DNA from: Tetradesmus obliquus
Lineage: Eukaryota; Chlorophyta; Chlorophyceae; Sphaeropleales; Scenedesmaceae
Reading direction: 5' to 3'
DNA length: 64,000 nucleotides
Assembly: GCA_030272155.1 (NCBI GenBank)
Contig: CP126202.1
Location: 4,299,501 to 4,363,500 of the forward strand
Shown: one piece after another, positions 1-64,000 of the stretch
How the letters are laid out: the number at the start of each line of letters is the position of its first letter
How positions within the stretch are numbered: position 1 is the first letter of the stretch
The notes under the pieces: model-generated
What the model was told of the DNA's origin: nothing
The model's database searches: none
Seen by the model: the letters and a program-made list of their open reading frames with translations, nothing else
Made by a program: the position numbers and the translations under genes

Positions 1-3000
1 GGTGTTCAGCAAGCATGAGCCAGTGCGGCAGTCAGTGCTGGACAGCTGGCACATCCTGCACCTGCACGACAAGCAGGTCAAGCAGCAGGTGCGCCTTCAG
101 ACTGGTGTAATGTGCTGCATGACTTGCGCGTTGATACCTGCCAGGCACCAGCTTGCCGGGGTATGCGGCAGGAGCCTGCATACATGCCCTGCCGCGGCCG
201 ACGCCTGCAACGATCGCTGTATTCACACTTTGTGGGAACCTGACCCGTGGTGTTGGTTTTGTATACCTCTGAAGTGCTGCTGCTCTTGCTGCTGCTGCTG
301 CTGCTGCTGCTGGTGATCGCCAGCTGGAGGAGCTGCTCACACAGGTCATCCCAGGCAGCAGCCTGTCTGAGCTGACAGCACTGGAGTGCATCATCGCCTC
401 GCTGCTGCAGCAGGGCAAGCTGGCAGCCAGCACAGCGTCAGTGATGTATGGCCTGATGGTGCGCAACATCTGCGAGTACTACACACAGCTGGAGCAGCTG
501 CCGGCAGCTGCCCTGCTGCCCCCTCTAGATGCTGCTGCTGCTGCTGGTGGTGATGACAGTGAGGATCGCATGGAGACAGATGGCGAAGCACAGGATGCTG
601 CAGCAACGCCAGGCTCTGCAGCGACAGCAGCGGCTGCTACAGCAGCCGTGCTGCGCAGGACGCTGCGGCACTACTTCACGCTGCTGTCCATGCTGACAGC
701 TGCGCAGCCATCGCTGCTGGAATCGCAGTATGTGCCTGCGCTTCTGGAGATTGGCTTCTCACTCAAGCTTGCGGTGAGTGCTGGGCAGCCACAGACTGTA
801 GCAACCTGCCGCCTCTGTCAGAATTCCTGTTGAAACATGCTACCACACCAGCTGCAAGATAAGAACTCTTGCTGGGATGTGAAGAATGCATTGATGAGCT
901 GTGGCTGGCTGCCATCCTTTTGAACTGCAGGATGTCTGGGCAGCAAAGCACTTTACCTCACACATGTTGCCATGATGTTGCGTTGCAAGCAACCTTCCCT
1001 TTCTGCCTTTGTGTTGCTCTCACTATCACCATCTGAACTGCAGGATGCCTGGGTAGCACGCCACGCCTGCCTGGCCCTGCGCTATGCAGCAGTGCACCTG
1101 ACACCCTCCAGCAGTATCCAAGCAGCAGCGGTTACGCCAGCAGGCACACTGGGAGGAGCATCAGCAGCCAGCAGTGCCAGCAGCAGCCTGCCAGGCTCCG
1201 GCAGGGATGCCATAGAGCCGCAGCAGCTGCAGCAGGTGCTGGCAGCACTGGTGCGGCTGCTGGTTGCAACGCCGCCACCTGGCATGGCAGCCAACTGGCC
1301 ATCTGCTGCTGAGGCTGCTATTGCTGCGCTGTATGCGCTGAGCCCGCAGCCCCAGGAGCTTCTGGCGGCTGTGCTGCAAGCAATGTTTGTGCGCTGCAAG
1401 CCAGGTGCGCGGGCGGCGCTTGCTTCATGTTGTACACCTGACTAGCATAGCAGGCCCTGGTCTGTTTGCCTGTGCAACATTGCTTGCTACAATACTGTAT
1501 TGTGGATGAGCATGGTTAGTAATTGCCCTCTTGTGCTGCGCTTCGGCTGGCACTTTCTGGATGCATCCAGTGACGTTTTCATCTGCCGCCTCATATGCGC
1601 TGTGTTGTGTACTGCTGCGCAGGTGGCAGCAGCAGCTCTGACGCTACCGTAGGCGGCTTCTCTGCAGCTGCGCTGGCGCGCTTCTTCTTTGCCCTCGGCC
1701 GCGTAGCATTACAGCACCTGCTGTGCATTGAGCAGATCGGCAAGTCCATCCGTGCTGTGCGCCTAGCTGGCGACAGGTTCGCTGCAGAAGCGGCAGAGAA
1801 GCAGCGAGAGGCGACTGCTGCAGCAGCAGCTGTAGGAGCTGGCAGGAAGAGCAGCGCGCGCGGACCTGCGCAGCAGCAGCAGCAGCAGCAGGACAACGAC
1901 ATTGGGGCGCTGCTGGGTGCTGGTTCTGTTGCTGCTGATGCTGAGCTGGACTCCTTGGCAGAGGCAGCAGAGGCGCAGGTGTGGTTGCTGCTGATTGCTG
2001 TGATTGGAGAGCAGCGCTGCATGCAGCCATGCAGCCACTGCGCAGTTGGTGATTCCGTCTCGTGTGGAGTCCAAGTAGTTCGCATTACTGCTGCCCTTGA
2101 TGACAACTACTGCTGGTTTACACCTGTTATATGAACCAGCATTGCACCAATGTACTAGTGGTGCTGCACAGAGGCTCTAGGTTCCTGGCATCGTACGCCA
2201 CTTGCTCAGAGCGGGCGTAACAACCTGACACCTGCATGTCTTTGTCTGTGATACTGTGTGTTGACCCACAGGTCATGTCAGCGCAGCAGTTGCTGGGCCA
2301 GTTTGGCCAGGTGCTGTCTCGCTTCTGCCACTTCAAGGCGTTGCTGTCAGCGCCTCAGGACCTGCAGGCTGCTGCACTGCTGGCGCTGACACAGCTCATG
2401 GCAGTGGACGGGCAGTTCTGCAGCGACAACGCAGCGGTGATGTTCACACTGCTGCTGGAAAGGTGAGCTCATGCAAAGCTAGGTCACATGAGTGCTACGC
2501 ACATGTGCACAGACAAGCCTACATCCTGGAAGGTCCTTCGCCGGCCAGATACTCTACCTGCCGTACATATGTGTCTCCATGCACCCGTGGCATCGCGTTT
2601 GCTCCACTTCTTGTGCAGTAGCAGTGCCTGCAATTAAGTCGATCTGCTCCTGCTACCGCTGCTGCTATTGCTGCTGCTACCGCTGCTGCTGCTGCTGCTG
2701 CTGCTGCTGCTGCTGCTGCTGCAGGAGCGTGAGCAGCGCCATCCGCATCAACATGGTGGTGGCACTGGCTGACCTGGCCAGCCGCTTCCCCAATGTGCTG
2801 GAGCCATGGACCAGCCGCATCTACGAGACACTCGAGGGTGAGGTGCAGCAGCGCACAGCGTGCAGCAGCAGCTGCTGCTACATCTTGACGTGATTAGCAG
2901 GTGTACAAGCGCGAGTGGCGTCCATACTGCTGCACACAGCTGTTGTCGGCAATATATGATGTGTTAGGCCTCTGTCCGCTACAAGCTGGCCCGGCTTGCA

Positions 3001-62712: not shown

Positions 62713-64000
62713 ATGGACCAGGCCACAGTTGTGTGTGTCAGGCTGCGCCCCTCATCCTCCAAGGAGACTGGTGTGCGCTGCATCAGGCCAGAGGGAGAGC
62801 AGGATGTCACGTTCACCAACCCAGACCGCAGCCTGAGCTCATATGGATATGACAAGGTCTATGGTGGGTCCTGTGCTGCTGGCCCACAGCAGCAGCAACA
62901 ATATAATGTAGCTATGTTTGTGCAGCTCCATGTAGCGTCAGCAGCGGTGGCAGCTGATCAAGGTTGTGGCCCTTTGACAGCGTTCCTGCAAGCACATGGC
63001 TGCTTAATTGGGTAGGCCTAGTGAGTCATCCTGCACGTGCTGCCACATGATAAGGTTCTCGAGCAAGCCTGCTGTGGCATGGTCCCATTTGCGGGGGAGG
63101 ATTCCATGCAGGCTGATGTCTTCAAGGACCGCTGAGTCATCCTGCATGTGCTGCCACTTGATAAGGTTTCAAGCAGGCCTGCTGTGGCGTGGTCTTGTTT
63201 GCAGGGGAGGATTCCACGCAGGCTGACGTGTTCAAGGACTGCCAGCGCATCGTGTCATCTGTGCTCAATGGCTACAATGGCACCATCCTGGCCTATGGAC
63301 AGACAGGCAGCGGCAAGACACACACCCTCATCGTGGGACATCGCATGCTGGCAGCTAAACTGCATCACGAGCAGGCGCATACATGCACAGCAGTTGCTTG
63401 CAGGACTAGCCATTAAGCTTGTTTTGAAGTGCTCTGCTCCTTGTCCTGCATTCTGCTGTTGTATCTTACGGCGTTGTTTGGCGCTTGCAGCACACACGCT
63501 GAGCCACAGGGCAGCAGCCACAGCCCCAGCTTGCCGTGACTGCGCTATTTTGATTCCTGCAGGCCCTGCAATGAGTTCACCAGGCTCTTGTCTGACTATG
63601 TGTCACCCTGCTGCGCTGTACTGCGCTGTGCTGTGCTGCACTGTGCTGGCCTGCAGGGCAGCATCAGCAGCCCTGAGCTGCAGCCGATACCTGCTCTGCA
63701 CTTTCATGGAGCCTGCACTGGTCTAAGACCCAACAGGCTGTTTGAGCTGATATTGCCATACCTTGCTTTGCTGGCCTGCAGGGCAGCATCAGCAGCCCAA
63801 AGCTGCAGGGCATCGTGCCTCGTGCAGTGCAGGCCTTGGGCGAGGGCATTGCAGCTGACACCTCAGGCACAGAGTATGAGGTGGGTGCTTGAAAAGCTTT
63901 CCTGCAAGAGCCTGAGCCGGTTTGGCCTGCCAGCTGCTTGCAGGAATTACTGGCACCAACACCGTGGGTGGCCCGCGCACCTTGTGTGGTGCACTCAAGC
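62713..64000 (+). CDS. Kinesin motor protein, N-terminal part
   Basis: Microtubule motor ATPase, cut by the window end. Exon 1 (62713-62863) starts [20 protein letters not shown] and ends in YGYDKVY. Exon 2 (63205-63332) gives [20 protein letters not shown] and the P-loop [13 protein letters not shown]. Exon 3 (63782-63880) gives [16 protein letters not shown] and ends TSGTEYE. These join in phase to 126 codons and match the order of a kinesin motor domain from its first strand past the P-loop. Introns carry partial copies of exons 2 and 3. The kinesin family cannot be fixed from this piece. Confidence 0.92.
63065..63242 (+). repeat. Duplicated kinesin exon 2 start
   Basis: [12 protein letters not shown] with its acceptor and ~40 bases of intron (about 63178-63240) is preceded by a diverged copy, [12 protein letters not shown], at about 63067-63130. 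A second, shorter copy of the flanking intron (GAGTCATCCTGCA) is also repeated near 63023 and 63133. Confidence 0.92.
63650..63812 (+). repeat. Duplicated kinesin exon 3 start
   Basis: GSISSPKLQ with its acceptor (from 63782) has an earlier copy, GSISSPELQ, from about 63659. The earlier copy has no conserved motor continuation. Confidence 0.92.

Follow-up and report, generated by a model that had tools for sequence, protein, structure and literature searches.

Internal gene duplication has reportedly been treated by Gao and Lynch in 2009, whose work is cited in a paper on the RdRp gene of potato. This gene contains, according to the accessible part of that paper, a tandem genomic duplication across an exon-intron boundary that carries splice signals with it (PMC4974935). 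In Chlamydomonas and Volvox, tandem repeats are densest in introns and show an excess near intron-exon junctions, as stated in the accessible part of PMC3887541. Introners bear target-site duplications and terminal repeats as their marks, according to excerpts of PMC9860276. The present analysis concerns partial copies of exon edges in Tetradesmus obliquus, studied in a stretch of 64,000 bp of contig CP126202.1 (positions 4,299,501 to 4,363,500 of the forward strand; assembly GCA_030272155.1), here called the window, with genes for condensin subunit 1, two LRR-cyclases (A and B), SCC3, and a kinesin. Partial local copies of exon edges are widespread in this genome. By the gene models, they sit in the adjoining intron, carry one splice site, and leave one exon intact. 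The strangest part, absent from the first-pass annotation of the window, is the divergence of the copies, which is of the coding type.

Abundance of the Copies

The assembly comprises 104.66 Mb in 17 contigs. The GC content of the window is 58%, and a table in the accessible part of PMC5966456 gives 57% for the species. Local direct matches were detected by self-BLAST with simple repeats masked and, in the window, offsets of up to 3 kb; 111 such matches, grouped into 41 clusters, cover 19.5% of the bases. One local shuffle of each of 22 sequences yielded a single match in total and none for the shuffled window. Beyond the window, 19 random 10-kb loci (190 kb) were sampled, with L004, which consists of N throughout, left unused; local direct repeats cover 1.2 to 48% of each locus. 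The loci contain 80 units, with 0 to 13 in each; their density of 0.42 per kb, compared to 0.64 per kb in the window, extrapolates roughly to 44,000 units genome-wide. The first-pass annotation had counted more than 25 separate cases, a figure exceeded by the 41 clusters and by 37 pairs of donor or acceptor type in the divergence test, and had proposed a genome-level process, in agreement with the repeats in the random loci. Its gene names are correct as well, with Pfam matches to Cnd1, Guanylate_cyc, SCC3 HEAT, SCD, and Kinesin in five of six protein pieces; no Pfam match was obtained for the sixth, a piece encoded near the 5' end of the condensin gene. In the literature searched, for the most part papers outside subscription and in part excerpts, exon-edge copies were nowhere described as a genome-wide pattern.

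Exon calls and frames come from a self-trained gene finder of our own rather than from RNA data. The strict model uses fixed splice matrices and stricter penalties, chosen according to how well they recovered 18 stretches of exon that are conserved in both cyclases (96.5% of bases recovered), and stands beside a separate permissive model. Among 231 adjacent pairs, 56 are of donor and 42 of acceptor type, and 7 more of these types lie within one exon; 44 pairs fall inside exons, 14 comprise whole exons, and 68 are without a recognized exon, some of them pieces of exons that the strict model failed to call. The median unit offset is 136 bp, with a 10 to 90% range of 108 to 276 (68 pairs with at least 80% identity). 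For the kinesin, the repeats are present as annotated earlier, but their assignment to exons fails in the strict model and comes from the permissive one.

Placement at Exon Edges

For the placement test, extra copies were removed in silico and the sequence was reannotated; 123 units with at least 75% identity, an offset of at most 700, and no overlap with a better unit were then compared with random placements of the same length. Exactly one exon edge is spanned by 78 of the 123 units (63%), compared to 26% expected, and by 40 of 53 units with at least 88% identity. Units confined to introns (11/123, with 22% expected) or to intergenic DNA (15/123, with 27% expected) are underrepresented, so that the predicted excess at exon edges over intron interiors and intergenic DNA holds. 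Whole-exon units (4/123, 5% expected) and units with one edge plus a whole exon (2/123, 1% expected) were also found. Only 8 of the 123 units lie inside exons (17% expected), and 7 of these have a length divisible by three, which is weak evidence of selection because several of the 7 resemble glutamine- or alanine-rich repeats. Visibility may account for much of the edge bias, as pieces of exon remain alignable and those of intron do not. Intron-only units may be scarce partly because intron copies become unrecognizable. Loss of units inside exons may also add to the bias, and their shortage can be explained by selection, although the class of exon-intron-exon units is not short.

The copies were said to keep one splice site, to be cut inside the exon, and to leave the full copy on the matching side, as is the case in 93 of 98 pairs not within a single exon (donor type, 54 versus 2; acceptor type, 39 versus 3). 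This polarity alone does not indicate a splice-directed process, because the same geometry results whenever a segment across one splice site is duplicated locally in direct orientation. The loss of copied splice sites is roughly what is seen elsewhere in the copies: 9 of 97 copies have lost theirs, about twice the nonsynonymous divergence of 4.5% per site. The proposal of a process that seeds splice sites as such is therefore not upheld.

Polarity of this kind is in line with ordinary tandem duplication within one lineage, in which an edge-spanning unit is doubled, the second edge is ignored by splicing, and the copy drifts neutrally, with or without later gene conversion from the exon. The same explanation draws on the near-expected loss of copied splice sites, on arrays in which intron parts also align, and on the one published potato case. 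A plain tandem duplication should leave the most similar pairs matching over the whole offset. Among 52 adjacent pairs with at least 90% identity, 7 match fully, but in 45 the match covers less than 0.9 of the offset, contrary to the head-to-tail layout assumed at first. In most high-similarity pairs, the exon pieces are alike and the intervening stretches are not. Spaced matches of at least 92% identity end no more than 10 bp from a predicted splice site in 76% of cases (33 pairs), compared to 35% for random positions.

Two further candidate mechanisms were rejected. Two spacers, one from condensin and one from SCC3, were searched through the whole genome and matched only themselves, which speaks against a filler or introner-like insertion. 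Breakpoints at CTG repeats would be expected to show at the cut edges; such 3-mers make up 0.261 at 94 cut edges, compared to 0.269 at random positions in the same exons.

Divergence between Exon and Copy

The reading frame of the full exon was applied to the copy in 97 pairs, all with an offset of at most 700 and none contained in a single exon. Differences at codon positions 1, 2, and 3 amount to 5.5%, 4.8%, and 17.1%, respectively, close to the values for the two cyclase paralogs taken as a control (5.4, 3.2, and 18.9%; 8 of 9 stretches usable, one having given no sites). Synonymous changes were counted at 317 of 1,331 sites and nonsynonymous changes at 181 of 3,993, with one stop codon. 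The ratio of the nonsynonymous to the synonymous proportion (pN/pS) is thus 0.19, with a bootstrap 95% interval of 0.15 to 0.24 that treats pairs from the same array as independent, which they are not. Frame errors in the gene models should push this ratio up, not down. Copies compared with each other give 0.20 (23 pairs, with some copies reused), and the 8 of these pairs that also share at least 40 aligned intron bases give 0.15. Neutral copies simulated from the same exons reach 0.42 to 0.60 against a constrained exon and 0.74 to 1.03 against each other (60 runs each), so the neutral divergence expected of an unused copy was not observed, although single families differ. The low ratios indicate that the sequences were still coding when most of their divergence accumulated. 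A phase statistic of 4.15 in 65 exon pairs, compared to 1.46 in 53 exon-less pairs, was also obtained.

Mutation bias at CpG was rejected as a cause, since the synonymous excess persists at non-CpG sites, where differences amount to 0.145 at fourfold sites, 0.134 in introns, and 0.044 and 0.034 at codon positions 1 and 2. In 79 pairs with enough sites, the pooled pS is 0.244 with an overdispersion of 1.73, and 6 pairs lie below 0.05. Families with at least two copies show a ratio of 0.24 for changes private to a copy and 0.23 for changes common to all copies; the coding-like private changes speak against a replacement of only the living exon. The synonymous distance between copies (0.243) is about that between exon and copy (0.238), which fits many source haplotypes and led to the rejection of one hybridization between two parents.

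These ratios count against ordinary tandem duplication, which has a few families with more nonsynonymous than synonymous changes on its side. Gene conversion does not rescue it: by reasoning rather than by simulation, conversion resets differences of any kind and should not lower the ratio, and neutral copies kept alike by conversion were rejected. Together with the incomplete matches of the spaced pairs, this makes tandem duplication an unlikely explanation.

Decay and Possible Use of the Copies

Part of the copies are visibly dead, with frame-breaking gaps or lost splice sites. Exon parts contain 28 gaps in 5,533 bases, compared to 197 in 7,632 intron bases. Of the 28, 25 disrupt the reading frame; these are found in 18 of the 97 pairs, and 23 of them are 12 bp or more away from the ends of the match. 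The frame-broken pairs show a pN/pS of 0.17 (0.10 to 0.29), much as the whole set does.

The low ratio, the single stop codon, and the 77 of 97 pairs without a gap would also be found if the copies were translated, serving as alternative exons in tandem that are selected at the level of the protein, a minority having died recently. Several copies are joined in frame by the permissive model, and two slight excesses point the same way: among gapless spaced pairs with a candidate site, the best partner splice site is in frame in 25 of 55 (18 expected), and 32 of 77 offsets are divisible by three. Against this stand the 30 of 55 best partner sites that are out of frame, the unchanged ratio of the frame-broken copies, and the proteins predicted without copies, in which Cnd1 and SCD each match in one stretch, a comparison confined to versions free of copies. 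Translation of the copies is judged improbable.

An assembly artifact, in which two haplotypes or a mixed culture were merged and diverged overlaps remained at switch points, would produce the allele-like divergence of the copies and would account for the few near-identical units. The first-pass annotation had argued against simple assembly error, and the decay of the copies bears this out, as functional haplotypes would not put frame-breaking gaps or lost splice sites in one copy only. Nested events, the rarity and mostly in-frame length of units inside exons, which imply selection, the extrapolated number of joints needed genome-wide, and the 17 long contigs further count against an artifact, which appears very improbable.

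Source and Proposed Origin

A genome search with one SCC3 exon returned only itself and three places in the same stretch of the window. One condensin exon returned itself and 25 short partial matches (72 to 100%), taken for repeat-like coding stretches. These single searches suggest that condensin and SCC3 are single-copy genes, in which case the copies would stem from a different allele or lineage, or from a time when they themselves were coding.

The explanation given here, held at a little under an even chance, is that most of the divergence between exon and copy built up when both served as coding versions of a single gene, and that the two came together only afterwards. The likely route would be recombination or repair involving strongly diverged haplotypes, with the allelic source inferred. 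Pairing would begin in the exon, the sole part still alike, and extend past its end, followed by end joining that closes the event in an intron without a match. The result would be the exon edge of one haplotype, with some intron, beside the complete exon of the other. With the intact exon used in splicing, the event would be nearly neutral, and events within exons would be purged by selection. The copy would afterwards decay as any intron would, and the extra splice sites would be by-products. A further step, more doubtful but possible, takes the introns as an archive of past alleles, left by exon-anchored recombination between haplotypes that differ at about 15 to 25% of synonymous sites, so that one genome would record the diversity of a hyperdiverse population.

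Several observations weigh against recombination between haplotypes. The diverged alleles are inferred from one assembly and were not observed. In 33 of 56 spaced pairs with at least 88% identity, the spacer matches neither of its flanks at a z of 4 or more, and several of the remaining 23 spacers hold CTG-type repeats; allelic introns at such synonymous divergence should often still align, so that an allelic source would require introns to turn over faster than synonymous sites. Exon-intron-exon units, though presumably harmful, are not depleted (5/123, with 2% expected). Two families of locus L009 depart from the coding pattern, with 11 nonsynonymous (N) and 5 synonymous (S) shared and 12 N and 6 S private differences at 8036-8163 and with 8 N and 3 S shared and 1 N and 1 S private differences at 8733-8964; the private changes of the condensin copies amount to 11 N and 8 S. 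The gene models of these cases may be wrong, or their copies may be truly neutral. The small in-frame excess of partner sites, finally, means that some copies may be used as exons.

Features of the Window

The copies catalogued in the window are listed in Table 1. The condensin array at 5444..6168 apparently goes back to a single copying event, after which 385 bp were duplicated.

Table 1. Exon-edge copies and related repeats by window position; exon coordinates are those of the gene models
Position	Strand	Gene	Feature	Source
2762..3415	+	Condensin subunit 1	~255-bp unit, 2.4 copies; donor end of exon (model 2725-2837) with intron	Self-BLAST, strict model
3618..4132	+	Condensin	Acceptor-side copy array upstream of exon 4115-4200	Strict model
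4320..4362	+	Condensin	Donor-end copy of exon 4115-4200, 93% identical; 113-bp spacer without other genome match	
4685..4743	+	Condensin	Acceptor-side copy of exon 4804-5015, frame broken	
5444..6168	+	Condensin	Four donor-end copies of exon 5218-5391	Self-BLAST
17413..17475	-	Cyclase A	Donor-end copy of exon 17581-17757	
18180..18229	-	Cyclase A	Acceptor-side copy of exon 18036-18114, 98% identical	
21646..21712	-	Cyclase A	Donor-end copy of exon 21761-21859, 98.5% identical; 45-bp spacer	
22681..22859	-	Cyclase A	Acceptor-side copies of exon 22267-22620, 101-bp period	
25996..26400	-	Cyclase A	Donor-end copies of LRR exon 26501-26647; one (26351-26446) also modelled as exon	
26729..26781	-	Cyclase A	Acceptor-side copy of exon 26501-26647	
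35165..35212	-	Cyclase B	Acceptor-side copy of exon 34498-35090	
39397..39468	-	Cyclase B	Acceptor-side copy of exon 39157-39253	
40997..42017	-	Cyclase B	Dense array of LRR exon pieces; no exon in strict model	
45212..45382	-	SCC3	Donor-end copy of exon 45518-46092, 95% identical	
47494..47650	-	SCC3	Donor-end copy of exon 47772-48008	
48081..48326	-	SCC3	Acceptor-side copies of exon 47772-48008	
48362..48481	-	SCC3	Donor-end copy of exon 48616-48814, frame broken	
49241..49807	-	SCC3	Array including donor-end copies of exon 49895-50091	
50464..50516	-	SCC3	Donor-end copy of exon 50614-50762; compared protein part identical; spacer without other genome match	
51758..52213	-	SCC3	Donor-end copies of exon 52269-52517, ~101-bp units	
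53353..53412	-	SCC3	Acceptor-side copy of exon 53177-53269; compared protein part identical	
54423..54472	-	SCC3	Donor-end copy of exon 54561-54686	
54935..54995	-	SCC3	Donor-end copy of exon 55060-55236	
55386..55446	-	SCC3	Donor-end copy of exon 55658-55789; 1 amino acid difference in 19 residues compared	
56090..56138	-	SCC3	Donor-end copy of exon 56208-56352	
56536..57275	-	SCC3	~250-bp units; pair 56286-56765/56782-57265 classed as acceptor-side copy of exon 56208-56352	
57298..57371	-	SCC3	Donor-end copy of exon 57580-57759	
58327..58519	-	SCC3	Acceptor-side copies of exon 58137-58264	
58679..58735	-	SCC3	Donor-end copy of exon 58787-58874; 45-bp spacer	
58870..59229	-	SCC3	131-bp unit array; no exon edge by strict model	
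60164..60237	-	Minus-strand gene	Donor-end copy of exon 60447-60536	
63022..63242	+	Kinesin	110-bp unit, 2 copies; no exon in strict model	
63641..63808	+	Kinesin	43-bp repeat, 82-bp spacer; copy 2 in permissive-model exon 63782-63892, none in strict model	

The neighboring LRR-cyclase paralogs (12400-28750 and 28750-45000, minus strand) share exons with 97 to 99% identity in some cases and 70 to 80% in others. Differences at fourfold sites range from 0 to 11% in some exons (3/42 or 0/16) to 45 to 58% in others (27/60 or 39/67), with the rest in between. All 17 BLASTN matches above 80 bits between the paralogs fall at predicted exons or exon copies. This pattern suggests exon-limited gene conversion, a candidate parallel to the exon-copy process. 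Elsewhere in the genome, G000:C13:4417041-4418076 shows four successive matches to one cyclase exon with 46 to 65% protein identity and is apparently another locus with multiplied exon copies.

Further repeats are found at window 8710-8888, where two 68-bp copies, 100% identical and 43 bp apart, lie without a predicted exon; they start with TGTAACG and end with CGTTACA and may be a small element with inverted repeats. At 11022-11213 lies a CAT repeat of 64 units with 98% matches. The predicted protein at 12454-15321 (minus strand) resembles, by eye, a putative non-LTR retrotransposon endonuclease with a reverse transcriptase fragment. In the sampled locus L008 (1-2832), a 1.4-kb duplication with 98% identity and a 76-bp spacer represents a long, young unit.

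Significance

If the joining of diverged coding versions were confirmed, it would represent a new route for intron growth and splice-site multiplication, driven by recombination between diverged alleles rather than by slippage and filtered by selection. Allelic history would become legible from a single genome, and the genome would offer a direct case for studying how splicing works in the presence of thousands of almost perfect decoy sites. For annotation, the copies call for caution: gene finders may join them as extra exons, as the permissive model did here.

Comparison with Known Systems

As in the accessible account of the potato RdRp gene, the duplicated segments cross an exon-intron boundary and carry splice signals. 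In contrast to that single case, the extrapolation for T. obliquus gives tens of thousands, and most high-identity copies are noncontiguous and diverge like coding sequence. Compared with tandem internal gene duplication in general, the crossing of one edge and the direct orientation are shared, whereas the contiguous whole-unit homology of young duplicates is not. The repeats of Chlamydomonas and Volvox likewise belong to green algae and are enriched in introns near junctions, but that work, in its accessible part, treats repeat motifs and not copies of exon edges. Introners also spread splice signals through many genes; here, the two spacers searched revealed no common family. Tandem alternative exons of the Dscam type share the adjoining near-copies of exon sequence, unlike which the copies described here are fragments with one splice site and often out of frame. 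Copies derived from alleles or haplotypes would show coding-type divergence that predates the loss of coding, and divergence of this type is found in the exon-edge copies of T. obliquus.

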